Below, piece after piece: positions 38,872 through 56,774 of a stretch of DNA of 57,023 nucleotides (position 1 is the first letter of the stretch; every line of letters begins with the position of its first letter). Both the position numbers and the translations under genes were made by a program. Origin of the DNA: Actinomycetota bacterium (lineage in GTDB: Bacteria > Actinomycetota > Thermoleophilia > RBG-16-64-13); assembly GCA_018830645.1 (NCBI GenBank), contig JAHJSA010000075.1, positions 1 to 57,023 of the forward strand, given 5' to 3'. Below the pieces are notes generated by a model that was given only the letters and a program-made list of their open reading frames with translations, ran no database searches and had not been told where the DNA came from.

Positions 38872-38890
38872 AAAGGATCGACGCACCCTC

Positions 38891-41263
38891 ATGACAGTAG
38901 TGCTCAACCTACCGGAGAGCCTCGGCGACGACCTGGCGCGCCTGGCCGAAGCCGTCGCGCAGGTCAACGCCGGGCAGCTCTCGCCCGCCGCGTTCCGCTC
39001 CCTGCGCGTTCCGCAGGGAGTCTACGAGGAGCGTCGCGACGGCAGCTTCATGCTGCGCGTGCGACTCGCCGCCGGATGCCTGCTCCCCGAGCAGATGCGG
39101 GCACTCGCCCAGGTCGCCCGCACGTACGGGAGCGAGACCCTGCACGTTACCACCCGCCAGGACATCCAGGTGCACGGCGTGCCCCTGGAGGGCATCCACC
39201 CCGCACTGGTGGAGCTTGCCCGCGTCGGGCTCTCGACTAAGGGTGGCGGCGGCAACACGGTGCGGAATGTCGGCGCCTGCGCGGAGGCCGGGGTCTGCCC
39301 TCGGGAAGCCTTCGACGTGCGGCCGTGGGTGGTAGCCGTCACCGAGCGACTGCTCGCCGATCCGCTGAGCCTACAGCTGCCGCGCAAGTACAAGATCGCC
39401 TTCTCGGGCTGCTCCCAGGACTGCGCCGCGGCGACCGTGCACGACTTGGGGTTCGTCGCCCGCGAGCGCGACGGGCGGCCCGGCTTCGCCGTCTACGTCG
39501 GTGGCGGGATGGGCTCCAAGAGCCGCGTGGCCGACCTGTTGGAGGAGTTCGTGCCCGCGGAGGACGTGGCCCTGGTCGCCGAGGCGGTTAAGCGGGTGTT
39601 CGACCGGCGGGGAAACCGGCGGAACCGGCACCGGGCGCGGTTGCGCTTCCTGGTGGAGCAGCTCGGGCTGGAGGAGTTCAGGCGGCTATACCTCGACGAG
39701 ATCAAGCGCCTTCGTGAAGCGGACTTTGCGCCGCTCTCCGTCCGGGACCTGCCCGGAGCCGCCCGCGCCCTCAGCACGGAAGCCGAGGACGGCGCCGCGG
39801 CCCCCTCCTCAGACCAGCCGGCCCTTAAGCTCTGGCGGAGGCACAACACCAGCGCCCAGCGCCAAGCCGGGTATGTGGTCGCCCACGTCCCCCTGGCGCT
39901 CGGCGACATCTCGGCCGGGGTCCTGGCGGGTCTGGCCGGCATCGCGGAGGAGTACACCGACGGCTTGGCCCGCGCCACACAGTGGCAGAACCTCTCGCTC
40001 CACTGGGTCCGGGAGACGGACCTCCCCCAGGTTCGGGCGGAGCTCGAGGCGCTCGGGCTGGCCGAACCCCTGCCACCCGCCTTGCGCCATACCGTGTCGT
40101 GCACCGGCGCAGCCACGTGCCGCCTGGGCATGTGCCTGTCGCGCGGCCTGACCAAGGCCTTCGTCGCCCAGGTCGACCGCTCCGAGTTGGACCTGGCCGC
40201 ACTGGGCGACTTGGACATCCACGTGAGCGGCTGCCCCAACTCCTGCGGCCGTCACCCCATAGGCCAGATCGGACTGCACGGCGGCGCGCGCCGCATCGAA
40301 GGCAGGCTTGTGCCCTACTACACCGTCCAGCTCGGCGGATGGGTACGGGAAGGCGAGACCCGGCTGGCCGAGGGCGGCGAAGCGGTCCCCGCCCGCGCCC
40401 TGCCGGCCTTCCTCACAGAACTCCTTGCCGCCTACCGAGAGTCAGGCACAGCGCCCGACTTCGCCGGTTTCCTCGCCGCCGGCGGCCGCACGCTGGCCGC
40501 CGAACTTGCGCGCCGGCACGGCACCGTGCCCCGGTTCGAGGAAGACCCGAGCTTCTACTACGATTGGGGCGCCGAGACCCCCTTCTCCCTGGCCGGACGC
40601 GGCCCCGGGGAGTGCGGAGCCGGGGTCTTCGACCTCATCGAACTGGATCTCGCCGCGGCCCGCGAGGCCGAGTCCGAAGGCCGGCACGTCGCCGCCACCG
40701 TGCTGGCCGCCCGGTCGCTTCTGATCACCCAGGGACAGGAAGCCCGCACCGGCGCCGAGGCGCTGGAGCTTTTCGCCTGCGGGTTCCTGGAAGCGGGGCT
40801 GGTGGACGCCGGGTTCGCCGACTTGATCGCGCGTGCCCGAAGGGCCGTCGCGATCGCCGACCCGGAGAACGCCTTGGAGGCCGAAAACGGCCTTCCGGTG
40901 GCCGAGCAGGTCGTAGCGCTTATCGAGGTGGTGCAGAACCTCTACGACTCGATGGACGACTCTCTGCGGTTCCCCGCGAAACCCCAACCGGCGCAGCGGA
41001 AAGCCGCCGACATCCCGCAACCCGCCGCGGGCTCCGCGCTCCTCGCCGACCGCGAAGTCGACCTGCGGGGCGTAGTCTGCCCCCTCAACTACGTGAAGAC
41101 CAAACTGGTGCTGGCCCAGATGGCGGGCGACGAGGTGCTGGCGGTGCTGCTCGACGCAGCCGGCGCCACGAACGTCCCTGAGAGCACCGCGAACGACGGA
41201 CATGAGGTGCTGGAGGTCGTTCCGCTGGAGGGCCACTGGCGGGTGCTTATCCGGAAGCGGTGA
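38891..41263 (+). CDS. Siroheme sulfite/nitrite reductase fused to a helical domain and TusA
   Basis: 790 residues. Two ferredoxin-like and two nitrite/sulfite-reductase repeats fill ~1-500; the siroheme-[4Fe-4S] cysteines are in SCTGAATCRLG (from ~402) and GCPNSCGRHPIGQ (from ~447). With cysH and the cysteine synthase next door, reduction of sulfite to sulfide is the likely reaction. A helical segment at ~590-700 (DLAAAREAESEGRH, AARSLLITQGQEAR) resembles HEPN-type bundles. The last ~70 residues are a TusA-like sulfur carrier with Cys in LRGVVCPLNYVKTKLVL. The fusion suggests that sulfide or sulfane sulfur is passed straight to a carrier cysteine. ATG 38891 lies 19 bp after the previous stop, behind GAAAGGA. 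Confidence 0.9.
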   Translation: MTVVLNLPESLGDDLARLAEAVAQVNAGQLSPAAFRSLRVPQGVYEERRDGSFMLRVRLAAGCLLPEQMRALAQVARTYGSETLHVTTRQDIQVHGVPLEGIHPALVELARVGLSTKGGGGNTVRNVGACAEAGVCPREAFDVRPWVVAVTERLLADPLSLQLPRKYKIAFSGCSQDCAAATVHDLGFVARERDGRPGFAVYVGGGMGSKSRVADLLEEFVPAEDVALVAEAVKRVFDRRGNRRNRHRARLRFLVEQLGLEEFRRLYLDEIKRLREADFAPLSVRDLPGAARALSTEAEDGAAAPSSDQPALKLWRRHNTSAQRQAGYVVAHVPLALGDISAGVLAGLAGIAEEYTDGLARATQWQNLSLHWVRETDLPQVRAELEALGLAEPLPPALRHTVSCTGAATCRLGMCLSRGLTKAFVAQVDRSELDLAALGDLDIHVSGCPNSCGRHPIGQIGLHGGARRIEGRLVPYYTVQLGGWVREGETRLAEGGEAVPARALPAFLTELLAAYRESGTAPDFAGFLAAGGRTLAAELARRHGTVPRFEEDPSFYYDWGAETPFSLAGRGPGECGAGVFDLIELDLAAAREAESEGRHVAATVLAARSLLITQGQEARTGAEALELFACGFLEAGLVDAGFADLIARARRAVAIADPENALEAENGLPVAEQVVALIEVVQNLYDSMDDSLRFPAKPQPAQRKAADIPQPAAGSALLADREVDLRGVVCPLNYVKTKLVLAQMAGDEVLAVLLDAAGATNVPESTANDGHEVLEVVPLEGHWRVLIRKR

Positions 41264-42517: not shown

Positions 42518-42581
42518 GCCGGTGCTCCCGGTCGCCGGTGCACCCGGTCGCCGCTGATCACGCTCGCCGGTGCTCCGGGTC
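42518..42581. repeat. Four 16-bp tandem repeats between convergent stop codons
   Basis: Units GCCGGTGCTCCCGGTC, GCCGGTGCACCCGGTC, GCCGCTGATCACGCTC and GCCGGTGCTCCGGGTC follow without gaps from 42518. The array fills the whole space between the ferredoxin stop (ends 42516) and the stop of the opposing cyclase gene (42580-42582). Confidence 0.9.
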
Positions 42582-44115
42582 AATCCTGCGAGCGGTACAC
42601 CCTGATCTGGCTCCGGCCGTTCTCCTTGGCCACATAGAGCGCCTGATCAGCGCGATCGAACAGATCCTTGGGCACGTGGCAGTCGGCCTCCAGGGCGGCG
42701 ACCCCCACGCTCACCGTGCGATCCGCGACTACTCCATCGGGCACGTCGATCGTGATCTCACGCACCGCATCGAAGATCTTGCGTGCGACCACCTCGGCTC
42801 CACCGAGCGCAGTGCCCGGCAGCACGAGAGCGAACTCGTCGCCGCCGTAGCGGGCCGGGATATCCGATTCGCGCACGGCCGACCGTATCGCCTCGCCCAC
42901 CCGGCGCAAGAACATATCGCCGAGCAGGTGGCCGTAGGTGTCGTTGAGTTCCTTGAAGAAGTCGAGGTCGATCATGATCATCGACATCTGGGCCTTGGTG
43001 TTCCGGGCGCGCAGGAACTCCTGCTCGAGGATCTGCTGGAAGAAGCGATGGTTGTACAGGCCGGTGAGCTGATCGGTTATCGAGCGCTTCTCGATCTCCT
43101 CGTGCAACAGGACGTTCTGCAGCGAGAGTCCCGCCATCCCTCCGACGCTCATGAAACGCTCGAGCTCCAGAGGACCGTAGGCGATATCCTCTGACGTCAC
43201 GATCAGAAGACCGAGCAGATCGTCCTTCCGAAAGAGCACCGCACCCAGGCCGGGGCTGCCGCCGAACATCTCCCGGAAGACCTCCGGCCGCACCAACGGG
43301 GTGAAGCTCCCGTCGGTCGACCGAAGGTGCCGGTCGACCCAATCAGGATCTGCCGGCAGGGTGTCGGGGTACGCTTCCAGGTTCTGGCCCTGAGATCCGT
43401 ACAGCCCCAGGGTCTGCGACTCGTTGTCGGCCTTGATGTAGAGGGCGCAGCTCTCGGCGCCCATGATGCCCAGGGTGCCGTCCACGACCATCCCCGCGAC
43501 GCTCCTCAGCGGCTCGTACACCGTGAGCGCCTTGAAGAACTCATGCGTGAAGAACGTCTCGGCGAGTTGGCGTTCCACGTCATGGTAGGCACGGCGCAGT
43601 TCGTCGAGCCGCAAGGCCAGGCGCTGCTCGCGCTTCTGAGCCTCACTGAAGAACGAGAACAACTCGAACAGCGCGTCTGTAGCCGAGTCGGTGGCGATGC
43701 GCTGGCTGAGGAAGTAGCCGAGGAGCTGGCAGCCGGCGCTCCCCACCACGAGAACGCCCGACGAGGGCAGGGGCGCTTCGAGAACGTCTAACAGATCGAA
43801 GAAGACCGAAACCTCGTCCGCGGGCTCCAATACGTTCGGCCGCCCGTTGACCACCCGTACCCCGGATAGGTCGAAACCGGGGGATTCGTCGCCCGCATCG
43901 CCCTCGCCGGCTTCCCCGGCCATCAGGGCGGTCCAGGCGTCGGCCTTGGCGGAGGCCCCATCGGCGGCCAGGTAGACATCGTGCACTTGGGCGATCTCGA
44001 TGCCTCTCAGCTTCGCGACGAACCACTGGGCCGGCCCATCGGGGCCCACGACCGAGCAGCGGAGTCCCACGTCGGCCTGCGTCTTCAGATTCTCGATCTG
44101 GTCGGCGATGTTCAT
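42580..44115 (-). CDS. GAF-GGDEF diguanylate cyclase at the end of the chemosensory cluster
   Basis: 511 residues without membrane segments. N-terminal ~160 residues are of unknown type; a coiled-coil (SEAQKREQRLALRLDELRRAYHDVERQL, ~157-184) leads to a GAF-like domain (~197-337) and a GGDEF domain. GGDEF is at 424-428 and the inhibitory site R415-E-S-D418 is intact, so the enzyme should be active and product-inhibited. ATG 44115 overlaps the cheD stop by four bases, which ties it to the chemotaxis genes. The N-terminal part may be the input from the Che proteins; this is inference. Confidence 0.9.
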   Translation of the reverse strand: MNIADQIENLKTQADVGLRCSVVGPDGPAQWFVAKLRGIEIAQVHDVYLAADGASAKADAWTALMAGEAGEGDAGDESPGFDLSGVRVVNGRPNVLEPADEVSVFFDLLDVLEAPLPSSGVLVVGSAGCQLLGYFLSQRIATDSATDALFELFSFFSEAQKREQRLALRLDELRRAYHDVERQLAETFFTHEFFKALTVYEPLRSVAGMVVDGTLGIMGAESCALYIKADNESQTLGLYGSQGQNLEAYPDTLPADPDWVDRHLRSTDGSFTPLVRPEVFREMFGGSPGLGAVLFRKDDLLGLLIVTSEDIAYGPLELERFMSVGGMAGLSLQNVLLHEEIEKRSITDQLTGLYNHRFFQQILEQEFLRARNTKAQMSMIMIDLDFFKELNDTYGHLLGDMFLRRVGEAIRSAVRESDIPARYGGDEFALVLPGTALGGAEVVARKIFDAVREITIDVPDGVVADRTVSVGVAALEADCHVPKDLFDRADQALYVAKENGRSQIRVYRSQD

Positions 44116-44582
44116 AGCTCGACGACCCCTCCCTTGTAGGACGTCACCTTCACGCGCCCGGTGGAGATATCGAACTCCGCGGTCCGGGCCCAACCACCGC
44201 CCACGTCCTTCCCGACGATGGGCACGTGCATCTCACGCAGCACCTTCAGCGCGACCTCGATGTTGCGGTCGCCCACGTTCTTGCCGAGGGCCACCCTGCC
44301 GAACATGTTCGCCCCGCCCACCACCTTGGCTCGGAGCCGAGGCTTCTGCTGGGAGGCGCTCTCGAGCTTCCTGATCAGAGCCGGTATCGCCGCCACGACG
44401 AACTTGCCGGCAGGCAAGGCGGTACCGTTGAGCGGAGCCGGCAGCAGGCAGTGGGCCATTCCTCCCACTTGGAGCCGTTGATCGAAGAGCACGATGCCCA
44501 CGCACGAGCCGAGGGCTTGAGCCACCAGGACATCCCCGGCGAACCCCATCTTCACCTGCGCTATGCCTACCTGGAGGATCAT
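44112..44582 (-). CDS. cheD: Chemoreceptor glutamine deamidase CheD
   Basis: 156 residues, whole family length. Catalytic Cys27 in ALGSCVGIVL and His44 in GGMAHCLLP are present. CheD deamidates receptor glutamines and is regulated by CheC, which is encoded 52 bp upstream. It ends inside the start of the GGDEF gene (ATGA). An AGGG precedes ATG 44582 at some distance. Confidence 0.93.
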   Translation of the reverse strand: MILQVGIAQVKMGFAGDVLVAQALGSCVGIVLFDQRLQVGGMAHCLLPAPLNGTALPAGKFVVAAIPALIRKLESASQQKPRLRAKVVGGANMFGRVALGKNVGDRNIEVALKVLREMHVPIVGKDVGGGWARTAEFDISTGRVKVTSYKGGVVEL

Positions 44583-44634
44583 TATCCCGACCCTCGCACT
44601 CCTCTCCGCGTGATTCGGGGCACGAGCACAACGG

Positions 44635-45198
44635 CTAGCCGGCCATCTCGTCGATCATGCGATAGAAGTCGGCGTCTGCCAGGAAGAACAACCGGCCGAG
44701 GACACTGGTCTGGTCGGTGACGAAGTCCACCTCGACCATCCACAAGTACTCCACCTCGTAGTCGAGCTCGCCCATAAGGGAGGGCACAAGCGATCCTGCC
44801 ATGTCGCGCAGATAGCGGGTGAGCTCGGGCTTCAGATCGGCCATGAGAAACGTGCCCGTCGCCTCGACGAACGAGGTCAACACGTTCCCGAGCGGCTTCT
44901 CGAGGCCGAACTCGTCGTCCTCGGCCACGCCGAGTGCCGCGCGCAGGGCCTTGCCGTCCTCCTCGGGCAACGCGAGCAGCAGCCCTGCCTGGAACGCCCC
45001 CTCCACGATGACCAAAGCCGCTTCGACCGGCTCGGTGGGTGGGCCGAAGACCGTGGCCGCCTCCTCCAACTCCATCTCCCGCAGCATGGGGACGGTGATC
45101 CGGACGGCATGGCCCATCTGCTCGGCCAAGGCGCCCGAACTCTGAGACGCACCGATGCTCACAATCTCGCGGAACAGGTCCGCGGCTTCAGGCCTCAA
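44635..45198 (-). CDS. CheC/CheX-family chemotaxis phosphatase
   Basis: 187 residues with the CheC layout of two pseudo-symmetric halves. The first helix is LFREIVSIGASQSSGALAEQ where CheC has EIxNIGAG: the catalytic Asn is replaced by Ser. The second helix, PLGNVLTSFVEATGTFL, keeps an Asn. CheC dephosphorylates CheY-P and binds CheD. With one changed site it may have one active centre or mainly act as a CheD regulator. TTG 45198 is the likely start, behind AGAGGAAT, overlapping the cheA end by 11 bp. Confidence 0.8.
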   Translation of the reverse strand: MRPEAADLFREIVSIGASQSSGALAEQMGHAVRITVPMLREMELEEAATVFGPPTEPVEAALVIVEGAFQAGLLLALPEEDGKALRAALGVAEDDEFGLEKPLGNVLTSFVEATGTFLMADLKPELTRYLRDMAGSLVPSLMGELDYEVEYLWMVEVDFVTDQTSVLGRLFFLADADFYRMIDEMAG

Positions 45199-47272
45199 CT
45201 CCTATTCCTCTCTGCAGAAGCAGTAAACGGAGGTCTACGAACAACGACAGCCGCCCATCGGCGATCACACAGGTTCCCACGAGCCCCGGTGCCCGGCTGA
45301 GCGACCGCGCGACGGGCTTGATGACGAGCTCTTGGTCGCCTATCAGCGAGTCCACAACCAACGCTTCTGTGCGCGACGACAGCTTCACGAGCAGCGCCAA
45401 GTGGGCGCCGTCGACAGCGAGAACGTCACCACGCTCAAGCAGGCCTACCAGGGAACGGATCGCCACCGGCTGATCGTTCACGATGATCATGGGCATCCCC
45501 CTGACCCAAGAGATCTCCCCCGGCTCGATCTTGATGATGCGGAACACTTGGTTCCTCGGCACGCCCACGACCATGTGTCCCGCCCGCACCACGAGCGACT
45601 GCAGGAGCGAGAGCGTGGGCGGGAATTCGAGAATCACCTTCGTGCCGGCGCCGGGCGTGGAGATCATGTTGATGTCGCCGCCCACCTCCACAACGTTCTT
45701 GCGCACGATGTCGAGCCCGACACCCCGACCCGAGACATCGGTAACCTTCTCAGCCGTGGAGAAGCCGGCCTGGAACAGCAGGGCGAACACCTGGGCCTGG
45801 GTGAGATCAACACCGGAGTCCGCGGAGAGCACACCCTTCTTGCGCGCCGACGCGAGCACCCGTGCCGGGTCGATGCCCCGCCCATCGTCCTCGACCTTGA
45901 GCGCGACGTTGCCGTGCTCCGCGGCGGCCGTAACGGTCAGGCGACCTCTTCTCGACTTCCCGGCTGCCTCTCTCTCCTCGGGTGTCTCCAGCCCGTGATC
46001 GAGGCTGTTCCTGATGATGTGCACCAGGGGCTCCTGCACGCGATCGAGCAGGGCTCGGTCGATCTCGGTCTCACCGCCGATGAACTCGGCGTCTACTTCC
46101 TTGCCGAGCTGGACGGACAACTCCTTGACCAACCGCTGAAAGCGCTGGAAGACCGAGCCGATGGGCACCATGCGCGCCGACAGCACCTCGCGCTCGAGGT
46201 CGTGGCTGGTGCGTTCGATCAACTCGAGGATCTCCTGAAGTTCGGGGTCCTCGGTGGCGCCCACCACCGCCCGGAGGCGTCGTCGCAGCATCAGGATCTC
46301 GCCCACCATGTTCGTGATGCGGTCGAGCTTCTTCCGGTCCACGCGGATGCCGGTCTGCTGGAAACTCTGGACGGCGCCGCCCAGGGCGCCGCCCACTTTC
46401 TCGCGCACGGAGGCCGCGGCGTCAACGTCGGCCGACGGCAGCGCGATTCCCGGGGTTGCTTCCTCGGAAGGCCTGGCGTCGGCCGGCGGCTCCCCCCCGG
46501 CCGGCCCCGCTTCGGAGGGCGCGGCCTCGGCCTGGATGGCCCCGGCCCGTCCGCAGTCGACGGTAACCCTGACGAGAGGCGGCCCCGCTTCCAGCGGGAT
46601 GACCAAAGCGACCTCTCCCACTGACGCAGCAGTCTGGACGAGCAGCCCCTCCTCGACGATGCCGTCTAGGATGAAGGCGACCGCACCGCCCGGCTCAAGA
46701 GTCTCCCACTCTTCCGGACCTGGTACCGTGCGCACCGCGGCGCCGAGCTTCTCCAAGCGGTTCAATACCATCTTGAAACGGAGTCTCGGATACGCGACTT
46801 CGTCCTCCAAGGTGACCGCGACGCCGGACTCGCCCTCCGCGACGCCGGTGCGGCCGCCCAAGACTCCGGTCTGCGGTGGCGCCTGTGGGGGCCGCACCTT
46901 CGGCTCACCGGCGAACATGGCCAACGCGCCTTGGTGGGAAGAGACGTCGTCGGCGTTGGCGGTCATATCGCGGAGCACGGACTCCACCTGGAACATGAAC
47001 TCCAGATCGATCGGGTCGATGGGCTGTTTGTCGTGGCGCCAACGGTCGAGCAGGTTCTCGGCCCGATGACAGAACTCGGCGATAGCGCTGAAACCCATGG
47101 CCCCCGCCATGCCCTTGAGCGTGTGGGCCACACGGAAGATCTCGTCGACCGGAGCAAGGTCGGCCGGCTGAGCCTCCAATCGGAAGAGGCAATCAAGGAA
47201 GCCGTCGAGCAGCTCCTGCGACTCCTCAAGGAACAGAGCTCTGTAGCGTGCCTCGTCAGAGATCGAGCTCAC
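45188..47272 (-). CDS. cheA: Chemotaxis histidine kinase CheA
   Basis: 694 residues. HPt domain with phospho-His50 (RVAHTLKGMAG), an intermediate region (~155-245) that may bind CheY/CheB, a Pro/Ala/Glu-rich linker (~245-290), the dimerisation helices (RKKLDRITNMVGEILML), the kinase with HIIRNSLDHGLETPEE and DDGRGIDP (462-469) and GRGVGLDIV, and a CheW-like C-terminal domain from ~555. All catalytic boxes are present. GTG 47272 overlaps the cheB stop (GTGA). Confidence 0.95.
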   Translation of the reverse strand: MSSISDEARYRALFLEESQELLDGFLDCLFRLEAQPADLAPVDEIFRVAHTLKGMAGAMGFSAIAEFCHRAENLLDRWRHDKQPIDPIDLEFMFQVESVLRDMTANADDVSSHQGALAMFAGEPKVRPPQAPPQTGVLGGRTGVAEGESGVAVTLEDEVAYPRLRFKMVLNRLEKLGAAVRTVPGPEEWETLEPGGAVAFILDGIVEEGLLVQTAASVGEVALVIPLEAGPPLVRVTVDCGRAGAIQAEAAPSEAGPAGGEPPADARPSEEATPGIALPSADVDAAASVREKVGGALGGAVQSFQQTGIRVDRKKLDRITNMVGEILMLRRRLRAVVGATEDPELQEILELIERTSHDLEREVLSARMVPIGSVFQRFQRLVKELSVQLGKEVDAEFIGGETEIDRALLDRVQEPLVHIIRNSLDHGLETPEEREAAGKSRRGRLTVTAAAEHGNVALKVEDDGRGIDPARVLASARKKGVLSADSGVDLTQAQVFALLFQAGFSTAEKVTDVSGRGVGLDIVRKNVVEVGGDINMISTPGAGTKVILEFPPTLSLLQSLVVRAGHMVVGVPRNQVFRIIKIEPGEISWVRGMPMIIVNDQPVAIRSLVGLLERGDVLAVDGAHLALLVKLSSRTEALVVDSLIGDQELVIKPVARSLSRAPGLVGTCVIADGRLSLFVDLRLLLLQRGIGVEA

Positions 47273-48315
47273 CTCCGCCGCCTCCGGGCGTCGGAGATCA
47301 ACTCGACGAGCCGCGGCCCGATACGATGGAGGGGCAGCACTTCGGAGACCACGCCTGCATCAATGCACGCCTTCGGCATGCCGTACACCACCGAGGTCTC
47401 CCTGTCCTGAGCGATGGTCGTGGCCTTCTTCGCCTTGAGCATGGTCATGCCTTGGCACCCGTCGGCGCCCATGCCGGTGAGAACCACCCCAATGCCCCGC
47501 GGACCGAACACCTCGGCCAAGGACGAGAGGGTCACGTCGGCGGAGGGCTTGAAGCGGCCGTAGCCCTTCTCGTCGGTAAGCTCTATGGTCTTGCTCGAAC
47601 CGTTCTTCCCGAACTTCAGCTGGCTCCCCGGGGGGGCCAAGTAGGCGTGACCCACGCGGATCACCTGACCGTCCACGGCTTCGCCCACCTCGAGCTCCGA
47701 CACACGGTCCAACCGTTGCGCCAACGAGCGTGAGAAGCCAACGGGCAGATGCTGCACGACGACGATGGCGGCCTCGAGATCCCCCGGCAACCCCGCGAAC
47801 AGCACGTCGAGAGCCATGGGACCGCCCGTCGACGCCGCCACCGCGACCACCGGCATGAACGGGCGCGCCCCCGGCTGCGGCCTGCCGGGAAGGACGGGGT
47901 GCTGCGCCAGAGGAGCGACCACCGCGGCCGCCGCCCTCACTTTCTCGCGCAGGTCTTCTCCCAGCTCGTCGATGTTCACCGAGATCGTGCCTGAGGGCTT
48001 GAGCACGAAGTCGAGGGCGCCGAGCTCGAGGGCTTCGTACGCCACGTCGGGATCGGTGACGCCGCTCAACATGATCACCTGCGGCCTCGGCCGGCCTTGG
48101 AGTTCCATCAAGACCTCGAGACCGTTCATGCGTGGCATCTCGACGTCGAGAGTGATCACGTCCGGATCGAGAGCAGCGATCTTCTTGAGCGCATCCTCGC
48201 CGTCTCGGGCAGTGTCGAGCACATCGATGTCGTCGGCCTTGGAGAGGACGTCGGAGATCAGGGTCCTCATCAGAGCCGAGTCATCGACGACGATGACTCG
48301 GGCCGCGCTAGCCAC
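47269..48315 (-). CDS. cheB: Chemotaxis methylesterase CheB
   Basis: 348 residues: receiver domain with DD at 11-12, phospho-Asp57 (ITLDVEMPRMNG) and Lys106 region, a linker, and the methylesterase with Ser162 (AASTGGP), His189 (VVQHLPVGFS) and Asp285 (TGMGADG). It removes methyl groups from the receptor and is activated by CheA. GTG 48315 is preferred, with GGAG ten bases upstream and an 8-bp overlap with cheY; GTG 48324 would add three residues. Confidence 0.95.
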   Translation of the reverse strand: MASAARVIVVDDSALMRTLISDVLSKADDIDVLDTARDGEDALKKIAALDPDVITLDVEMPRMNGLEVLMELQGRPRPQVIMLSGVTDPDVAYEALELGALDFVLKPSGTISVNIDELGEDLREKVRAAAAVVAPLAQHPVLPGRPQPGARPFMPVVAVAASTGGPMALDVLFAGLPGDLEAAIVVVQHLPVGFSRSLAQRLDRVSELEVGEAVDGQVIRVGHAYLAPPGSQLKFGKNGSSKTIELTDEKGYGRFKPSADVTLSSLAEVFGPRGIGVVLTGMGADGCQGMTMLKAKKATTIAQDRETSVVYGMPKACIDAGVVSEVLPLHRIGPRLVELISDARRRRR

Positions 48316-48667
48316 GACCCACACGCTCCAGAGTGTCCAGCACCTTCTGGGGCTGGAAGGGCTTCACAATGAAGTCCTTGGCGCCCAGGGTAAGGGATCG
48401 CTCGATGAACTCCTCTTGGCCGAGGGCGCTCACCATGACCACGTTGGCCTCGGGATCGAACTCCATGATCCTCGCGAGGGCCTCGATGCCGTCGGCCACA
48501 GGCATGGTGATGTCCATCGTCACCATCTCCGGCCGCACTTCTTGGTACACGCGCACCGCCGCCTCTCCATCAGCCGCTTCACCCACGATGCAGTAGCCGT
48601 TCTTCTCCAAGATGTCTCGGAGCATCCTGCGGATGAATCCGGAATCATCGACGATCAACACGTTCAT
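48308..48667 (-). CDS. cheY: Chemotaxis response regulator CheY
   Basis: 119 residues, single receiver domain. Acidic residues Asp7/Asp8, phospho-acceptor Asp52 (TMDITMP), Ser80 and Lys102 (IVKPF) are all in place. No output domain is attached, so it acts by protein contact; with no flagellar motor gene nearby its target is open. ATGA overlap with cheW. Confidence 0.93.
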   Translation of the reverse strand: MNVLIVDDSGFIRRMLRDILEKNGYCIVGEAADGEAAVRVYQEVRPEMVTMDITMPVADGIEALARIMEFDPEANVVMVSALGQEEFIERSLTLGAKDFIVKPFQPQKVLDTLERVGRG

Positions 48668-49176
48668 CCGACGGGCACCTCCTTGAGCTCCCGGAGCCGG
48701 GCCAGCTGCTCGGGAGGCAGCAGCTCATGAGCCTGCACCAGCAAGAGCACGTGATCGTCGCGCTTCACGATCCCACGGACGGCCGCCCTGATCTCGCCGT
48801 CGACCACGAGGTCCTCAGGGGCTTCCATGATGTCGTCGGACGATATCTCCTCGACTGAGTAACAGGAATCGACAAGGGCGGCCATGTTCTCGTCGGCCAC
48901 GTCGAGCAGCAGGACGAACTCCTCGGGACCGCCGGGCGACCGAGTGCCGTCGGCCGAGCGGGTGCCGTCGGCCTCGCTCAGACCGAACCGCCTGCGCAGG
49001 TTGACAACCGCGTGAATCTCGCCGCGCAGGTTGAAGATGCCCTCGATCGAAGGGGGGGCGCCGGGCATATCCACGACCTCAGGACGACGCAAGATACCCT
49101 TCACGTCTGTGATCGGGAGGCCATACCGCCCCCTGCCCAGGTGGAACAGCAGGTATTTCTCGACTTCACCTGGCAT
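48664..49176 (-). CDS. cheW: Coupling protein CheW
   Basis: 170 residues, one CheW SH3-like domain linking receptor and Che[42 protein letters not shown] and [17 protein letters not shown]. After the third strand there is an inserted loop [15 protein letters not shown], produced by an exact-frame 18-bp duplication (48941-48976). ATG 49176 follows GGAGGAG and overlaps the receptor gene end by 11 bp. Confidence 0.93.
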
Positions 49177-50533
49177 GTGTCTCCTCCGACACGGCCACGC
49201 GCCCGTTGCCGTTGGAGGAGACCGTGAACCGGGCCACGAGGGCTGCGAGGTGCCCGGCCATGTCGGCGAGTTCGTGACTCGACGAGGTGATCTCCTCCAT
49301 GAACGCGGCCTGCTGCTCGGTCGCAGCGGCGGTCTGCTGCGCGCCTGCGGCGTTCTCTTCGACGACCGCGGCGATGTCCGATGACGCCTTCTCCACACGC
49401 TCGACGGCACTCAGCTGCGCGGCGAGCACGTTGACTATCTCATCGTTCAGCCGTGCTGTCTCTTCCACTCCGCGGAAGAGTCGCTGCAGCACTTGGCTCG
49501 TCTGCTCCACATCCGCGTGGCCCTCTTCGATCAGCATGCGCTCACGCTGCATGACATCCACGGCCACGTCGGTGCCTCCCCGCACTTCGGAGATCAGCGC
49601 GGCGATCTGCTCCGCGGCCGTGCTCGACTGCTCGGCCAGCTTCCGCACGTGATCGGCCACGACGGCAAAGCCCCGACCGGCTTCGCCGGCCCGGCCCGCC
49701 TCGATGGCGGCGTTCAGCGAGAGCAGGTGGGTCTGGTCGGCGATATCGTTGATCAGGTCGTTGATACGCTCGATCTCGCGAGATTGCTTGGCGAGTTGCT
49801 CCACCACTTTCACAGAGCTCTCGATGCCGTCCTGGAGGCTGGTGATCTTCTTGATGAGCCGCCCTGAGGCTTCGCCACCCTCCTTCGTGAACTGTTGGGC
49901 TTCATGCGAGGTGTCGGCCGCCGCTTTCGCCTGACGTGAAGCTCCTTCCATGGCGCGGGTGATCTGAGACACGGCCGTGGATATCTCCTCGATCTTCCGC
50001 GCCTGAAGCTCCGCCCCTTGGGCGATCTGCTGAACAGACGTGGAAACCTCGATGGTGGAGTTCGTGATGTCGTTCGCCGAGTCGCTGAGCTGCTCGGCGG
50101 CGTTCGATACGCTCGTGGAGGAGTCCTTCACGCCTCCTACGATGCCGGAAAGGCTTTCGAGGAGGTAGTTGACTTGACTGGCCAGAACGCCGAGTTCGTC
50201 ACTGCGCTCAACTTCGCACCTATGGCTGAGATCTCCCTGCGCACTCCGGCTGAGCGAACCGCCTATCTCGCGAACCGGACGCAGGACGTACCGATAGAAG
50301 CCGATGATCCAGAGCGGGCTGCCGATGAGCAGAGTCGCTAGGGCCAGTTCCAGAGACAGTGGGAGAGCCAGGTCCATGAAGCTCACACCTGGAGCGAGCT
50401 TCCCCCGCAGGTTCATGAAGTAGAAGAACGTGAGCGCCACGATCGTGGTCGGGCCAATGGTGATCAACGTAGCCATGTAGTACACGAACGCGAGGCTCCT
50501 GAAGAACCCGACTTCGTGGAACTCCCGTTTCAT
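49166..50533 (-). CDS. Methyl-accepting chemotaxis protein without an external sensing domain
   Basis: 455 residues. Two membrane segments (~14-40 and ~54-80) are separated by only about 13 residues, so there is no extracytoplasmic ligand domain. A HAMP domain (~80-135) and a long coiled-coil with the signalling tip [28 protein letters not shown] near 272-299 follow. The Gln/Glu-rich helices ([18 protein letters not shown]) provide methylation sites. Input may come from the membrane, HAMP state or a partner such as the upstream diguanylate cyclase. ATGA overlap with cheR. Confidence 0.93.
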
Positions 50534-51384
50534 GACGCCTCCTCAGGCATTCTCTTCCTATATACCCGCTCGGCCAAGCTCACGTGGACGAACTCGTCGT
50601 AGAGCTCCGGTTTCAGCTTCTCGCTCTTTCCCAGTATCAGGAGGCCGCCCGGGTTGAGCGCCAGAGCGAACTTCTTGAGCACCAAGACCTGCTGCTCCTG
50701 GGTGAAGTACATCAATACGTTGCGACAGAGGACCATATCCATCATGCGCTGTTCGACGCTGGAGAACAGATCCAGGTGCTGGAAGCGCACCATAGTCCTG
50801 AGGCCTCTCGCCATGCGTACCCCATCTGGCTCACTGCTCGTGAAGCGTGCAAGCTGCCCACGCGACAACCCGGCCATTTCGTTCTCCGAGTACAGCCCGG
50901 CTTTGGCCTTCGCGAGGCAGTCGCGGTCGTAGTCGGTGGCTGTGATGCGTACCGCCGCAAGGCTCCGCGGGTCGCTGCCGGCCAGTTCGGAGAAGAGCAT
51001 CGCCAGACTGTACGGTTCTTGCCCCGAGGAACACCCGGCGCTCCAGATGCGCACGAACGACTGCCCTCGGCGCTGCTTCTTCGCGAGTAGCTGCGGGCCT
51101 ATCTCCCGGCGCAGGAACTCCCACGTGCTGCGATCGCGGAAGAACTCCGTCACGTTCACCGTGAGCGTGGCGATCAGCTTGGTCCACTCGTCCCCGCTGG
51201 TGTCGAGAAGCCGGATGTACGCACCCAAGTCGCCCGCACCGCTCGCGCGGAGTCGGGATGTCACTCGCCGGCGGAAGTACGACTGCCGGAATTGACCACA
51301 ATCGAAATCGCGCTCGCGTTCTATCTTCTGCGCGAGGGCGCCAAGTTCCTTGTCGGAAAGCATAGAAGAAGATTCCACCAGCAT
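50530..51384 (-). CDS. cheR: Chemotaxis methyltransferase CheR
   Basis: 284 residues. The N-terminal helical domain ([14 protein letters not shown]) contacts the receptor. NVTEFFRD at 77-84 and the SAM site [19 protein letters not shown] at ~111-129 are diagnostic; [17 protein letters not shown] and [14 protein letters not shown] complete the domain. It methylates the receptor with SAM. ATG 51384 has AGGTGG seven bases upstream; ATG 51363 is an alternative. The 232 bp before the next gene contain no evident gene. Confidence 0.95.
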
Positions 51385-51616
51385 CAACCTACCACCTTCG
51401 GAGTGCATGCTCCGACACCGTCCCGTGTCCCTGCCGACCACCGAGGCTCCCGTTGCTTCGAACAGCGCCCCACGTCTCTTAGATTCGACAGTTCCCTGCC
51501 CGGGCTTTAGAACTCGCTCAATTGCGGGGCTCCGGTCGCGGCGGCCACACACGTGGCGGCACGATGCGGCGGGTCCCCTGTCCCGGCCTTAGCGCGGCTA
51601 CGAATGCTCCCAGGTC

Positions 51617-52177
51617 TCAGCCTCGGCGGGAAGCTGCATCGACCCGGGCGCCCGCCGCAGGGTCGAACGTCCGATCCTGCCGGATCTCGTCGGCGATGCG
51701 GAACGCTTCGAGAAGAGCGAACTGGAAGTTCACGAAAGCTCGGAACTTGGCTGGGTGTATCACGTCCAGTCGCGCGAAGCTGAAATACGGCGAAGGCAGC
51801 TCCAGAGAGAGGCAGATTGTCTCGATGATCTGATCGAAGACGCAATCCTCGAGGTCTTTCTGCGTGACCATCTTCTGGTGCACGAGGATGCGCCCGATCG
51901 GTAGGTGCTTGCCACGGGACTCGGCGAGTCGTTGGAGCTCAAGAGCCCGGTCGAGCTGTCGCGCCGTCACGCGGCCCTTGTTCAGCAGCTTCACCCCGAG
52001 CGGCTCCTGCTCTGGAGCCGACGCCGACACCATGTAGCCTCGATCGAGGTAGATGGTGAACGTCAGGCCGAGTTCGTATATGCGGAACGCGCCCGTGAGC
52101 GAGGCGTTGCAGAGCAGCTGGACGGCGTTGAGCAGGCCGAAGGGCTTGAGCTCCCCCTGGATGATCACCCTGGACAT
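51617..52177 (-). CDS. DUF4388 protein with MshEN-like repeats
   Basis: 186 residues, soluble. An N-terminal DUF4388/PATAN-type domain (LKPFGLLNAVQLLCNASLTG, then FTIYLDRGYMVSASA) is followed by two segments like type II/IV secretion ATPase N-domains, PLGVKLLNKGRVTARQLDRAL and PIGRILVHQKMVTQKDLEDCV. Related MshEN domains bind c-di-GMP in some proteins, and DUF4388 proteins often sit in chemosensory and gliding/pilus pathways. It could be the c-di-GMP receptor of this cluster, but the RLGxxL hallmark is only partly kept. ATG 52177 overlaps the cyclase stop (TGATG). Confidence 0.8.
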   Translation of the reverse strand: MSRVIIQGELKPFGLLNAVQLLCNASLTGAFRIYELGLTFTIYLDRGYMVSASAPEQEPLGVKLLNKGRVTARQLDRALELQRLAESRGKHLPIGRILVHQKMVTQKDLEDCVFDQIIETICLSLELPSPYFSFARLDVIHPAKFRAFVNFQFALLEAFRIADEIRQDRTFDPAAGARVDAASRRG

Positions 52178-54000
52178 CAGGTTCCGTCTGTGGGGCCGCC
52201 CGGGCCTCCTGCTGTCATGTCAGCCCCCGCTTCGTCGGCCGACACCGTCCTGTTCCGTCCGCGCGCCTTCGCCAGGTACAAGGCTCGGTCTGCCGCTTCG
52301 ACGAGCTCCTCGGCGGAGCCGCCATGCTCGGGCCGCGTGGACACACCCAGAGAGATAGTGAGCCGGCCCCCAGGCTGTCCCTCGCCTTCGCAGAAGGGCT
52401 CGTTCTGCACAATATCCCGAAGGCGATCGGCAAACGCTACGGCCTCATGATGCGTGGTGTGCGGCAGTATCGCGGCGAACTCCTCGCCGCCGTAGCGGGC
52501 CACGAAGTCCGTACCGCGCGCATGGTCGCGGAGCATCTCCCCAAGCCGTCGCAAAACCTGATCGCCTCCCCGGTGGCCGACACGATCATTGTACTTCTTG
52601 AAGTCGTCCACATCGAGGAGCACGAGGCTCAGAGACAAGCCATACCGTGCCGCCCGCACCACTTCGCTGCCGAGGGCTTCGTAGAAGTGGCGGTGGTCGA
52701 ACAGTCCGGTAAGACCGTCGGTGATGGCCATCTCGCGGGCCAGTTCGTGCAGTCGCGTGTGGACCACGGCGCGCGCTCCCTGCACCGCCAAGAACTCCAG
52801 CGCCCGACGGTCGGGTTGGGTCAGATCGACATGCCCTTCGGCGACGAGCATGAGGTGACCCACCAACGCCCCTTCCGAGGCCATCGACAGCAGGACCGCA
52901 GTCTCGTATTGCTCGGGAAGACCGATGGCCTCAAAACCCACGTCCGCCGATCGATACAACACGCGCGCCGCGCCCACTCCAGTCATGAGCCCTGAGATCA
53001 TGCGCAGAGCCTTCTCGACGTCACGCGATTCCGGGGCAACCCCGCCTTCGGAGGAGGCGCCACGACCCGCCGGGGACGAGACCGGATCGACCACGAACGA
53101 AGTACCGTCGTCGAGGACCACGGCTCCGGCCGCGAACCTCCCGACGCCTATTGCTTCACCGATCATGACGTGCATGATGCTGTCTATGTCGAGCGCCGAA
53201 CTCAGAGCCTCGGCGACCCGGTGCATCGACGTCTCCAGGCGCTCCCGGGCCTCCTCGAGGTCACCGATGCGGCCGGTCAGTTCTGAGGTCATAGCGTTGA
53301 AGCTGATGGCCAAGTCGCCGATCTCGTCTTCCTGCGGGAAGTCGACACGCTGCGTGAGGTCCCCTTGAGCGATCTGCCGCGCCCGCCTGGCAAAGATCTT
53401 GAGGGGCCGCACTACGGTGCGCGAGAGCATCACCCAGAGCGCCAGCACGAGCACGCCGGCCATTACCACCGTCTGCAACACGAACCTGTCCCGGTGGCCG
53501 CGAAGGAGGTCGTAGTCGTCTCGCAGAGAAACATCCACGCGGATCACCCCGGCGATGGGATCCGACTGCTCATGGCACGTGAAACAGACGGGGCTGATCT
53601 CCACGGGTGTGAACACGATGTAGGCAGGGTCGTCAACGCCCGTGGCCACCATGCCCCTGGGTCGTCGGTCACCAAGCGTTTCCGCGCCCAGTTCTCCCAA
53701 GGGTGCGAAACCCGTAGTAAACGCCGGCTTGCCCGTAGCGTCGAACACGGCCACGTCGAGCACTTCGTCTGACTTCTCGATGCCCTCGACCACCTGCCCG
53801 ACCAACTCGGTGGTGCGCGACTTCATCGCCGCCGTCAGCGCGCCTTCCGTGGTCCGCCCGACGTCGCGGGCACTCTCGTAGGCATCCGCCAACACTTCCG
53901 AGCGCTCCGCCCGGTAGAAGAGCGCGCTGAGGCCCGCTGTGATCGCCACCACGACGCTCAAGACGACCACGAGGATCTTGGAGTTGAGAGAAGCCCGCAT
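52177..54000 (-). CDS. Membrane diguanylate cyclase with an extracytoplasmic CXXCH (heme c) motif
   Basis: 607 residues. A first membrane helix (~8-30), an extracytoplasmic domain (~31-172) containing PVCFTCHEQSDP with CXXCH at 139-143, a second helix (~173-197), HAMP (~195-246), GAF-like region (~258-415) and GGDEF domain. The active site is GGEEF at 504-508 with the inhibitory site R-G-T-D at 495-498. The CXXCH in a family-like Tll0287/cache-type fold implies covalent heme c as redox or gas sensor outside the membrane. ATG 54000 is preferred: GGGGA lies seven bases upstream; ATG 54018 has none. It is the first gene of the chemosensory cluster. Confidence 0.9.
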   Translation of the reverse strand: MRASLNSKILVVVLSVVVAITAGLSALFYRAERSEVLADAYESARDVGRTTEGALTAAMKSRTTELVGQVVEGIEKSDEVLDVAVFDATGKPAFTTGFAPLGELGAETLGDRRPRGMVATGVDDPAYIVFTPVEISPVCFTCHEQSDPIAGVIRVDVSLRDDYDLLRGHRDRFVLQTVVMAGVLVLALWVMLSRTVVRPLKIFARRARQIAQGDLTQRVDFPQEDEIGDLAISFNAMTSELTGRIGDLEEARERLETSMHRVAEALSSALDIDSIMHVMIGEAIGVGRFAAGAVVLDDGTSFVVDPVSSPAGRGASSEGGVAPESRDVEKALRMISGLMTGVGAARVLYRSADVGFEAIGLPEQYETAVLLSMASEGALVGHLMLVAEGHVDLTQPDRRALEFLAVQGARAVVHTRLHELAREMAITDGLTGLFDHRHFYEALGSEVVRAARYGLSLSLVLLDVDDFKKYNDRVGHRGGDQVLRRLGEMLRDHARGTDFVARYGGEEFAAILPHTTHHEAVAFADRLRDIVQNEPFCEGEGQPGGRLTISLGVSTRPEHGGSAEELVEAADRALYLAKARGRNRTVSADEAGADMTAGGPGGPTDGT

Positions 54001-54073
54001 TACGCGATCCCCGATCATGCTGCGCGTTGGACGTGGAACCCCCCCGAACCGTCGGAACGGGGCACAATCAACA

Positions 54074-54113: not shown

Positions 54114-55172
54114 CTAGCTACGACCTGCGGTACACACCTCCGGCTCGACCTCCGAAGGTGCAGTCTCGCCCTCGGAGGCGACGACCTCGACCTCCGAGGG
54201 CGCCGTCTCAACCTCCGACGGCACCGTCTGGGCGAGTTCGGCCATGCGATTCTCCGCGAGCGGATTGGGGACGCTCGAGTGCTCGCCGTACTCGGCTATG
54301 CGTCGCATCAGCACATACTGCTCGGGGTCCTCGCCCCGCGAGACCGCCTCCGCTTTGAGGGCGGCCTCTTCCTTGATAGCTTCGTCCACCGCCTGATAAT
54401 GCAGGAACCCACCCTTGTGCAAGATGCTATCCCCCAGCTCCGGGTCGGTGAGCATCGAGCCCACGCATGGGAAGCTGTGCCAGTATTTCGACACCACTCT
54501 CTCGTTGAGATCGGCGTCGATCCGCTGTCCGGCCAGGTTGTAGGCCACGTAGTACGTATTACCGCACGGAGCGCTCTGCACGACACGTGCCTCCCGGATC
54601 ACACCGTCACGGCTCTGGATCACGATCTTCGGCTTTCCGATCCGATACCTCTCCTGGAACTCTCTGATGACGACCTGATCGTTCCGCGCATCGAGCGCAC
54701 AAGCCGGTTTCGGAAACGCGCACTCCAGCCCGAGGCCGTCGCAGATGCGCTGCGTCTGACGCCGGACTCCAGCGCTCAGCCAGTCGGTGTCGTCCTGCGG
54801 CACTATGAGCGCCCGGCTGCCCGACGCGACCGCGAGGGCGGGCAAGCTGAGAAGGAGGTCTTCGTGGATGTTGATGGCCAGGGTTACGTCGTGGGGCTCG
54901 AGCAGGTCGGGCAGGTAGTCGTCGGGGTCGTCCACGTACACCGGTATCCGGGCGGGCAACTGCAGAAGACCGACCACGTCCTCCGCGAATTGGATCGGAT
55001 ACTGATCGCGGCAGTGCTCGCAGAAGCTGGCGCATCCGGTGCACAGCTCAGCGTCGTTGGTGAGGTGCATGATCACGCGCTGAGCGAAGGCGTCGTCGAA
55101 GGACTTCAGGAACGACGACGGCAGGTCGGACTCCTGCGACTCGTCGCCCGAGAATACGAAGAACAGCCTCAC
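54114..55172 (-). CDS. DUF166 family protein
   Basis: 352 residues, predicted soluble. It starts MRLFFVFSGDE and carries LCTGCASFCEHC with Cys44, 47, 51 and 54, which could bind a metal or Fe-S cluster. Then RALIVPQDDTDWLSAGVRRQ and VVQSAPCGNTYYVAYNL contain another Cys. DUF166 occurs mainly in archaea and anaerobic bacteria and its function is unknown. The C-terminal ~30 residues are four copies of a 7-8 residue repeat (PSEVETA, PSEVEVVA, SEGETA, PSEVEPE). GTG 55172 follows GGGGAGGG. The leader is about 118 nt, from a near-consensus promoter. Confidence 0.82.
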   Translation of the reverse strand: MRLFFVFSGDESQESDLPSSFLKSFDDAFAQRVIMHLTNDAELCTGCASFCEHCRDQYPIQFAEDVVGLLQLPARIPVYVDDPDDYLPDLLEPHDVTLAINIHEDLLLSLPALAVASGSRALIVPQDDTDWLSAGVRRQTQRICDGLGLECAFPKPACALDARNDQVVIREFQERYRIGKPKIVIQSRDGVIREARVVQSAPCGNTYYVAYNLAGQRIDADLNERVVSKYWHSFPCVGSMLTDPELGDSILHKGGFLHYQAVDEAIKEEAALKAEAVSRGEDPEQYVLMRRIAEYGEHSSVPNPLAENRMAELAQTVPSEVETAPSEVEVVASEGETAPSEVEPEVCTAGRS

Positions 55173-55279
55173 ACACCCTCCCCGCCGGGCTTCGCGGACC
55201 CTCCCCGGCGGCCGGCCCGGCAGCCGGCTCCGTCGAAGCTCCGGCCACGACCTGATCCGACTCCGCCCGCTTTCCCGGG

Positions 55280-55325
55280 GTTTACACTGCCTAGACAGTA
55301 TAAACCACCGTACACACTGTGTCAA
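55280..55325 (-). promoter_or_regulatory. Consensus promoter and overlapping dyad operator for the DUF166 gene
   Basis: On the minus strand TTGACA (55325-55320) and TATACT (55302-55297) are 17 bp apart, essentially consensus. GTTTACACTG (55280-55289) and CAGTATAAAC (55296-55305) form an inverted repeat with 9 of 10 positions paired and 6 bp between, covering the -10 box and start point. The spacer also contains ACACA-C-TGTGT. The divergent regulator gene is the obvious candidate to bind here. Confidence 0.8.
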
Positions 55326-55372
55326 CGGTGCTTAGAGTACCGGCACTGTGCGCCACTATCACTTTCCGCTAC

Positions 55373-55378
55373 TATACT
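55373..55378 (+). promoter_or_regulatory. Possible -10 box of the regulator gene
   Basis: TATACT lies four bases before ATG 55383, suggesting a leaderless or nearly leaderless transcript, or initiation of translation at ATG 55401. No -35 box was recognised. Confidence 0.4.
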
Positions 55379-55382
55379 TCTG

Positions 55383-56147
55383 ATGGATACCCGAGCCGAC
55401 ATGTCTCACACCAGCATCCTCTCCGCGGAGGAGACACTCAACATCACCGGTGCCCTCGGGGACCCCACCCGCTATTCCATCTACAGGTTCATCGTCGAAG
55501 CGGCCGGGAAGCCCGTCACGGTGGCTGAGGTGGCCGCCCAATTCTCCCTACATCCCAACGTGGCCCGTATGCATCTCCAGAGACTGGTGGAGGTGCGCCT
55601 GCTTCAATCCGACACCCGGCGCTCGAAGGGTGGCGGGCGACCCGCTCGCACGTACAGGCTCGGCGCCCAGGTGGCCAATCTGCAGTTCCCCCCGCGCGAC
55701 TACCAGATGCTCGCCGGGGTGGCGCTGAAGGTCGTCGACGAGTTCGCGGGCCGAGACCCTGAGGCGCTCGACCGCGTGGGCACCGAACTCGGCCGGGAAG
55801 AAGCCCGGCATGCCCTGAAGCGCGACGGTCTGGACCCGCGGCACCACGACATCGGCGTCCTACTCAAGAGTCTCTCCGCCACCGCCGTGGGCCTCGGCCT
55901 CTACCCGAGGGTCGAGCAGAACGACGACGGCACCGTGGACTTCGAAATACGCAACTGCGTCTTCCGCGAACTCTCCACACAGTATCCGGAGCTGGTGTGC
56001 AGTCTTCACACTGCCATGCTGAAGGGCTTCGTGCAGGAGTACGTCTCGGCTTCCGGTCTGGAGGGCACTCCGGCGATCTCGTCCGGGGAGGCGGTGTGCC
56101 TCTTCAAGGTGCGCCTACGGCCGCCGACTCCCGCAGGCGAGGAGTAA
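55383..56147 (+). CDS. SufR-like winged-helix regulator with conserved cysteines
   Basis: 254 residues. Winged helix-turn-helix at ~15-95: ITGALGDPTRYSIYRFIVEA, VAEVAAQFSLHPNVARMHLQRLVEVRLL, then a basic wing GGGRPARTYRLG. The C-terminal half has the layout of SufR-type repressors, where NCVFRELSTQYPELVCSLHTAMLKGF holds Cys192 and Cys206, with Cys239 further on; in SufR such cysteines bind an Fe-S cluster. It probably senses redox or iron-sulfur status and acts on the divergent dyad operator. ATG 55383 is taken as start, 55401 is possible. The last codons are the first unit of a tandem repeat. Confidence 0.82.
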   Translation: MDTRADMSHTSILSAEETLNITGALGDPTRYSIYRFIVEAAGKPVTVAEVAAQFSLHPNVARMHLQRLVEVRLLQSDTRRSKGGGRPARTYRLGAQVANLQFPPRDYQMLAGVALKVVDEFAGRDPEALDRVGTELGREEARHALKRDGLDPRHHDIGVLLKSLSATAVGLGLYPRVEQNDDGTVDFEIRNCVFRELSTQYPELVCSLHTAMLKGFVQEYVSASGLEGTPAISSGEAVCLFKVRLRPPTPAGEE

Positions 56148-56211
56148 ACTCCCGCAGGCGAGGGATTGGCTCCCTGCAGGCGAGCAGTCGACTCCCGCAG
56201 ACGAGGGGCAG
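56127..56211. repeat. Four 21-22 bp tandem repeats starting inside the regulator stop region
   Basis: Units near ACTCCCGCAGGCGAGGAGTAA begin at 56127, 56148, 56170 and 56191, with increasing divergence. The first contains the TAA stop. The array fills the gap to the stop of the opposing cytochrome gene. Confidence 0.9.
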
Positions 56212-56219
56212 GCCGGATC

Positions 56220-56774
56220 CTACAGGTTCCGCGCGAACCGGTCGATCAGGAACCCGCCCACCAAGCCGAGCACGATCGTCACCGCGGCCACCACTACCCC
56301 GACCGTCCGTCCGGTGCTCGCCGCTACATCCACGCCTTCCCGCGGCTCTTGGTCCCCCTCGAGCTTCTCCTGAGTAAGGCCGCTGTAGAACCACGAGGAC
56401 ACCCCGGCGCGCAGGTGCACGTTCGAGGTGTGGCAGTCCATGCAGCGCCCGGCGCTGGTCTCGGCCCTGAAGTCGGGGTGGATCGCGTCAACATCGTGGC
56501 ACCCCATGCACACGCCCACATCTGGAGACGGTCTGAAGTCGCCTCCGTGCGTGTTGTGACACGCCTCGCAGGAGACTCCGTTGCGGCCGTGGTTCTGAGT
56601 GCGCCACGTGTCGACGATCTCACGACTCACCGCGCCGTGGCAGGACACACAGATGGGGTCACCGGGCAGCGTGGTGGGAGTCGTACCGGTCTCGGCCAGA
56701 GCCGAGCCCGCAGTTCCCAGCAGCAGGAGGGCGGCCGCGAAGAGGGCACCGGCGATGAATCTTGCGCGCCCCAT
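56220..56774 (-). CDS. Membrane-anchored tetraheme cytochrome c
   Basis: 184 residues. A signal peptide at 1-27 (GALFAAALLLLGTAGSALAE) is followed by four CXXCH motifs at 42-46, 69-73, 89-93 and 111-115, with extra His at 62, 76, 99 and 120 as likely distal ligands, in the style of NapC/NrfH-like and cytochrome c7-type proteins. A C-terminal membrane helix (~158-178) anchors the domain outside. The start ATG overlaps the cytochrome b stop (TGATG), so both belong to one complex. It likely takes electrons from the quinol-oxidising cytochrome b. Confidence 0.92.
   Translation of the reverse strand: MGRARFIAGALFAAALLLLGTAGSALAETGTTPTTLPGDPICVSCHGAVSREIVDTWRTQNHGRNGVSCEACHNTHGGDFRPSPDVGVCMGCHDVDAIHPDFRAETSAGRCMDCHTSNVHLRAGVSSWFYSGLTQEKLEGDQEPREGVDVAASTGRTVGVVVAAVTIVLGLVGGFLIDRFARNL

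Follow-up and report, generated by a model that had tools for sequence, protein, structure and literature searches.

A probable Dif-like, non-flagellar chemosensory cluster framed by two diguanylate cyclases in a bacterium of the Actinomycetota

What can a complete set of chemotaxis (Che) genes control in a bacterium in whose genome the flagellar protein FlhA is not found? This question is raised by contig JAHJSA010000075.1 of an Actinomycetota bacterium (GenBank assembly GCA_018830645.1), whose whole stretch of 57,023 nucleotides (nt) is called the window here and in which a Che gene cluster is framed by two diguanylate cyclases. The best reading of this cluster is a Dif-like, F1-type (44H) chemosensory system that is non-flagellar. 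Its most likely output, at a rough probability of 0.55, is type IV pilus (T4P) or surface behaviour linked to cyclic di-GMP (c-di-GMP), which we infer from genome content and domain associations.

Translation and family searches confirmed eleven co-directional genes on the minus strand, running from 54018 to 42580 in the order GGDEF1, DUF4388, CheR, methyl-accepting chemotaxis protein (MCP), CheW, CheY, CheB, CheA, CheC, CheD and GGDEF2, so that the gene set and order proposed in the original prediction, made from the sequence alone, were all recovered. The same prediction had described overlapping ends at nearly every joint, and eight of the ten joints do overlap, by 1–17 nt; at the other two the genes are separated, DUF4388 from CheR by 208 nt and CheC from CheD by 52 nt. 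No sigma-70-like site turned up in a promoter scan, which took in the 208-nt gap. The genes and the matches identifying them are as follows.

52177..54018, minus strand: GGDEF1, a membrane cyclase (Pfam GGDEF 145 bits, HAMP 56 bits) built from a transmembrane (TM) segment, an extracytoplasmic sCache_heme-like sensor with CxxCH, a second TM segment, HAMP, a weak GAF and GGDEF
51617..52177, minus strand: DUF4388 (PATAN-type) protein of 186 amino acids (PF14332 62 bits), with an MshEN-like repeat at residues 59-116
50530..51408, minus strand: CheR, receptor methyltransferase (PF01739 185 bits, PF03705 29 bits); the start is uncertain, 51408 or 51384
49166..50533, minus strand: MCP of 455 amino acids (PF00015 145 bits, PF00672 (HAMP) 41 bits)
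48664..49176, minus strand: CheW (PF01584 94 bits)
48308..48667, minus strand: CheY, a single receiver (PF00072 104 bits)
47269..48324, minus strand: CheB, receiver and methylesterase (PF01339 201 bits, PF00072 88 bits)
45188..47272, minus strand: CheA, with a single Hpt, a weak P2, dimerisation, ATPase and CheW domains (Pfam)
44635..45198, minus strand: CheC (NF041093, CheC_Thtogales, 41 bits; PDB 2F9Z/1XKR)
44112..44582, minus strand: CheD, receptor deamidase (PF03975 87 bits)
42580..44115, minus strand: GGDEF2, a soluble cyclase with a divergent N-terminal part, a GAF-like region and GGDEF (PF00990 152 bits)

The host genome (3.87 Mb, 99.84% complete) contains one CheA and one MCP according to genome searches, and both lie in this cluster. 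FlhA gave no match in this genome, nor in the relatives G046 (same genus), G080 (another genus) and G076 (a third genus of the family), and the same search found FlhA in the controls E. coli, B. subtilis, Caulobacter and Thermotoga. A CheA search was run over 396 genomes of the phylum, and gene orders were read in the loci examined. Families f51 (G419, G449 and G468) and f67 (G511) again show the order CheR-MCP-W-Y-B-A-C-D with a GGDEF protein after it, and the same Che order without a cyclase is found in f26 and f52 and partly in f47 and f77. None of the four genomes carrying the Che-cyclase block has FlhA, and most of the other genomes that show this Che order lack it too; some 4 kb downstream of its Che block, G419 has a PilT gene.

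Since a tree of CheA alone gave weak support (83) for the placement of the cluster, six Che proteins were concatenated. In the resulting tree, which samples loci of this phylum only, the three clusters of the present type join those of f51/f67 with a Shimodaira–Hasegawa-like approximate likelihood ratio (SH-aLRT) support of 99, and the flagellar loci stand apart with a support of 100. Approximately unbiased (AU) tests reject a grouping with the flagellar loci of the bacterium's own class (P = 0.0004) as well as with all sampled flagellar loci (P = 0.003), and the MCP tree joins the present type of cluster with f51 at a support of 97. The system had originally been proposed to be non-flagellar, with a flagellar affinity of CheA together with a flagellar locus, and cyclases not kept in related clusters, named as findings that would speak against it. 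Because the Che proteins stand apart from the flagellar loci, FlhA was not found and both cyclases are conserved with the cluster in G046 and G080, neither of these objections applies.

The identical eleven-gene order is present in both G046 and G080, and the arrangement is therefore more than chance. Between the two genera, DUF4388 (81% identity) and CheY (78%) are the best kept, and CheA is 57% identical. The relatives also have their flanks in common, with a ferredoxin gene (plus PAP2 in G046) on one side and DUF166, helix-turn-helix (HTH) and cytochrome genes on the other. In G076, the same flanks enclose GGDEF1 and DUF4388 alone, followed by the ferredoxin gene after about 250 bp, and searches of that genome found no CheA and no MCP. 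Given this pair without Che genes at the same site, the cluster is made of two modules, a cyclase-DUF4388 pair and a nine-gene block from CheR to the terminal cyclase. The Che tree and the Che-less locus of G076 fit a horizontal gain of the Che block in this family; alternatively, the Che genes may have been lost in G076. The suggestion that this is an undescribed Che/c-di-GMP arrangement thus stands for the combination, as far as the open-access literature goes, and is weakened by the fact that each of its modules is found separately (the Che block with its cyclase in f51/f67, the pair in G076).

Beside GGDEF1, at 54114-56996, the window encodes a DUF166 protein, an HTH regulator that matches MetOD1 weakly, and a multiheme cytochrome c, and this order next to the GGDEF1-DUF4388 pair is kept in G046, G080 and G076. 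Further away, at 38804-41263 on the plus strand, lies a gene for a sulfite/nitrite reductase-type protein with two NIR_SIR and two ferredoxin-like half domains and a C-terminal TusA sulfur-carrier domain.

The receptor and the kinase define the type of the pathway. A TM scan placed the membrane segments of the MCP at about residues 21-40 and 52-79 of 455, leaving almost no outside loop, and the protein has a HAMP domain and no extracytoplasmic sensor domain. Its signalling domain counts about 22 heptads per arm, and the receptor is therefore of the 44H type. CheA has one Hpt domain and no receiver (Pfam). CheC falls below Pfam detection and was recognized by the NCBIfam model CheC_Thtogales at 41 bits and by its match to the Thermotoga CheC structure 2F9Z. 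In the alignment both of its phosphatase sites are degenerate (N to S at site 1, E to P at site 2), and because key residues are lost at both sites, its phosphatase activity is doubtful as far as can be judged from sequence; the CheC of G080 retains site 1. The CheC proteins of the f51 Che-cyclase blocks likewise lack the phosphatase-site residues, unlike those of the R-to-D blocks without a cyclase. For CheD, we take the catalytic residues to be those of the Thermotoga protein. Aligned to PDB 2F9Z_C, CheD keeps the Cys and His of this triad and has Ala in place of Thr.

The sensor of the cluster appears to sit on a cyclase, not on the receptor, given the CxxCH domain in GGDEF1 and the lack of any outside domain in the MCP. 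The motif (CFTCHE, at residue 145) lies in the outside domain between TM1 and TM2 and is strictly kept in the source genome (G000), G046, G080 and G076. Residues 72-170 match the sensor of a Geobacter heme-MCP (PDB 3B47, E = 3e-4), and the family model PF21563 gives 15 bits here and 32.3 bits in the G080 ortholog, where alone the cut-off of 27 is passed, which bears out the earlier description of a heme-type cyclase. sCache_heme domains fused to signalling modules behave like nitric oxide (NO) sensors (PMC12889525), and GGDEF1 might likewise carry heme and respond to NO or to redox state. Compared with the sCache_heme proteins GSU0582/GSU0935 (PMC12889525, PMC3460858), GGDEF1 shares the outside CxxCH domain before TM2 and HAMP as well as the matches to 3B47 and PF21563, but its output is GGDEF instead of an MCP, and the operon's own MCP is without a sensor domain.

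Both cyclases look active, with a GG(D/E)EF motif and an RxxD I-site in each (GGEEF and RGTD in GGDEF1, GGDEF and RESD in GGDEF2). No receiver was detectable in either by family searches, and no TM segment was found in GGDEF2 by the TM scan. The last cyclase had indeed been predicted to lack a receiver and CheY to lack an output domain, and CheY is a lone receiver in Pfam. GGDEF2 can be aligned with the GAF-GGDEF cyclases that close the f51/f67 Che blocks, and, judging by a small cyclase tree, may or may not be their strict ortholog.

The DUF4388 protein had been suggested as a possible reader of c-di-GMP, and we compared it with the MshEN motif (PMC5013675). It contains two MshEN-like halves of 24 residues, in both of which the motif glycine 3 and the final glutamine are present (G61/Q82 and G95/Q116, invariant in three aligned orthologs). 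At the guanine-stacking arginine positions (position 1), both halves have proline (P59 and P93), and the spacer between them is 10 residues long versus 5 in MshEN. Thus, the suggestion gains from the motif and loses from its two missing arginines. The NCBIfam c-di-GMP motif model NF053729 gives 32-41 bits in four DUF4388 orthologs against a cut-off of 38 (36 bits in the source genome, 41 in G080 and 38 in G076), and in PilF small deviations in the MshEN motif contribute to abolishing binding (PMC12002112). From its residues, c-di-GMP binding by DUF4388 is possible. A search of the DUF4388 profile against solved structures gave no match.

The source genome has 6 DUF4388 and 16 GGDEF matches; a third GGDEF protein of the window is encoded at 14217-15758 on the minus strand (genome search match C76:14265-14777). 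DUF4388 genes lie near GGDEF genes above expectation, with three of nine within 5 kb in G076 (P about 0.0016). Of 14 control genomes, those of Synechococcus, Thermus and Deinobacterium have the domain and the others do not, and the DUF4388 alignment, scanned against named genomes, brought up just the two relatives that were already known. In family f26, DUF4388 genes are found inside T4P operons together with Roadblock and Ras-like GTPase genes. A T4P operon of another family (L132 3633-12940, G614) encodes PilT, MshEN-PilB, a Ras-like GTPase, a DUF4388 protein of 1137 amino acids and at least two consecutive Roadblock proteins. In Synechocystis, PATAN-CheY proteins bind PilB1/PilC (PMC7690835, PMC12288463), and in Myxococcus two PATAN proteins are among the candidate, untested partners of T4P-polarity proteins (PMC11580455). 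Compared with PATAN-CheY, the present protein has the PF14332 domain and no fused receiver, CheY being separate.

The source genome itself is equipped for T4P, with PilB, PilT and PilC on contig C43 and a second PilB/PilT set on C78. Both PilB proteins carry MshEN motifs that score well above the cut-off of 38 bits, at 66 and 70. On C43, genes for DUF4388, Roadblock (MglB-like) and an Arf/Ras-type (MglA-like) GTPase are found no more than about 10 kb from PilB-PilT-PilC; this DUF4388-Roadblock-GTPase trio is located downstream of the pilus genes (L058 16253-17822).

Given these features, we propose the following working for a surface-directed pathway. The first module would be the membrane cyclase GGDEF1, taking redox or NO input through its outside c-type heme motif and translated with the PATAN-type protein; the second would be a full adaptation and kinase pathway of the F1 type (44H) with a Dif-like, sensor-less receptor, plus the soluble cyclase. 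The MCP would read the state of the membrane or of a partner and set the activity of CheA, with CheR, CheB and CheD adapting the receptor. CheA would phosphorylate the lone CheY, whose putative target is the T4P motor and polarity machinery (PilB/PilT, MglA), possibly by way of DUF4388. Meanwhile, the two cyclases would set the level of c-di-GMP, which the PilB ATPases could read through their MshEN domains and perhaps DUF4388 as well. The net result might be redox-guided surface motility or attachment. We also considered a more specific form, in which phosphorylated CheY and local c-di-GMP meet on the free-standing DUF4388, with its proline-variant MshEN-like site, to act on PilB/MglA. This split version of a PATAN-CheY output is an unlikely, speculative variant; if true, heme input and receptor array would converge on one coincidence detector of the pilus motor, in a chemosensory class not yet described.

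Several points weigh against the T4P-directed explanation. The Che cluster contains no pilus gene and the T4P loci lie on other contigs, and any physical or genetic connection between CheY and the pilus is putative. PF14332 (DUF4388) is presumably PATAN, an equation that we assume. AlphaFold models built on three-sequence alignments were too poor for use, with a mean predicted local distance difference test (pLDDT) score of 42 for DUF4388 and 34 for GGDEF2. FlhA was the sole flagellar marker used, and the support values overstate how surely the Che proteins of the present type are placed, since the branch leading to them is long, at 2.1 substitutions per site.

The main rival holds that the pathway, like Dif or Wsp, acts chiefly on exopolysaccharide or biofilm by way of c-di-GMP, with phosphorylated CheY activating or releasing one of the cyclases (GGDEF2, by its divergent N-terminal part) and with pili, if involved at all, acting as an upstream sensor as in Dif. 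The two-TM, nearly loop-less receptor resembles DifA, Geobacter Dif-like clusters hold both CheC and CheD (PMC2577667), GGDEF2 belongs to the Che block just as a GAF-GGDEF cyclase ends that block in other families, and the predicted activity of both cyclases would suit it. However, GGDEF2 has neither a receiver nor a known CheY-docking domain, the cluster has no exopolysaccharide genes, and the associations of DUF4388 and T4P favour pili, which leaves this rival tentative, at well below even odds. It is improbable that the two modules share no circuit at all, the Che block having simply been inserted downstream of an older cyclase-DUF4388 pair. This would explain why G076 has the pair between the same flanks and why the largest gap, of 208 nt, falls exactly at the module border; yet the modules stay joined in three genomes of two genera (G000, G046 and G080) with all genes in one direction, and c-di-GMP is the common product of both. 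A former flagellar cluster retained after the loss of flagella is suggested by CheC, CheD, the single-Hpt CheA and the 44H MCP, an F1 type that is usually flagellar. Against it are both AU rejections and the nearest Che-block relatives, which also lack FlhA; this relic is largely refuted, and we consider it very unlikely.

A cell that has a single receptor and a single CheA and is without a flagellum is about the simplest case in nature for studying the non-swimming output of a chemosensory array. The relatives supply a natural experiment, namely the pair without Che in G076 and the Che-cyclase block of other families in FlhA-less genomes, and the action of a lone CheY in non-flagellar systems thus becomes testable. 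The analysis also places DUF4388, a widespread and unnamed domain, beside c-di-GMP and T4P in actinobacteria.

How does the cluster compare with known systems? The exact combination was not found described in the open-access literature, the part of the literature covered here. The original prediction had named Wsp-type and pilus-type systems as parallels with different outputs, and CheA and the output do set the cluster apart from both, but it left a clear parallel, the Dif-like cluster (PMC2577667), unnamed. Wsp, of the alternative cellular functions (ACF) class, also combines Che proteins with a diguanylate cyclase, whereas here CheA has no receiver and the two cyclases have other input domains; membership was rejected, as no receiver-GGDEF output protein is present. 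Pil-Chp and the cyanobacterial Tax/Pix systems are likewise chemosensory pathways in T4P-bearing cells, in cyanobacteria with a PATAN-type domain near CheY. Here, in contrast, the PATAN-type protein is unfused to a receiver and the cluster lacks pil genes. Membership in the type IV pilus (Tfp) class, of the Pil-Chp type, was also rejected: the genome has T4P machinery, but a CheA of this class has more than one Hpt domain and ends in a receiver, whereas the one here has a single Hpt and lacks a receiver. F1-class flagellar systems of the Bacillus/Thermotoga type share the CheC/CheD set, the single-Hpt CheA and the 44H receptor, and differ in that FlhA is absent here, the order is R-M-W-Y-B-A-C-D-cyclase and the proteins stand apart in trees. 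The closest described system is the Dif or Dif-like cluster of Myxococcus xanthus and Geobacter (PMC2577667), also non-flagellar, with a sensor-less 44H two-TM MCP with a tiny outside loop, with CheA, CheW, CheY, CheC and CheD and, in Geobacter, CheR. The present cluster differs from it by the presence of CheB and by the framing with two diguanylate cyclases and DUF4388, and its likeness to DifA/DifE and their partners is judged by architecture.

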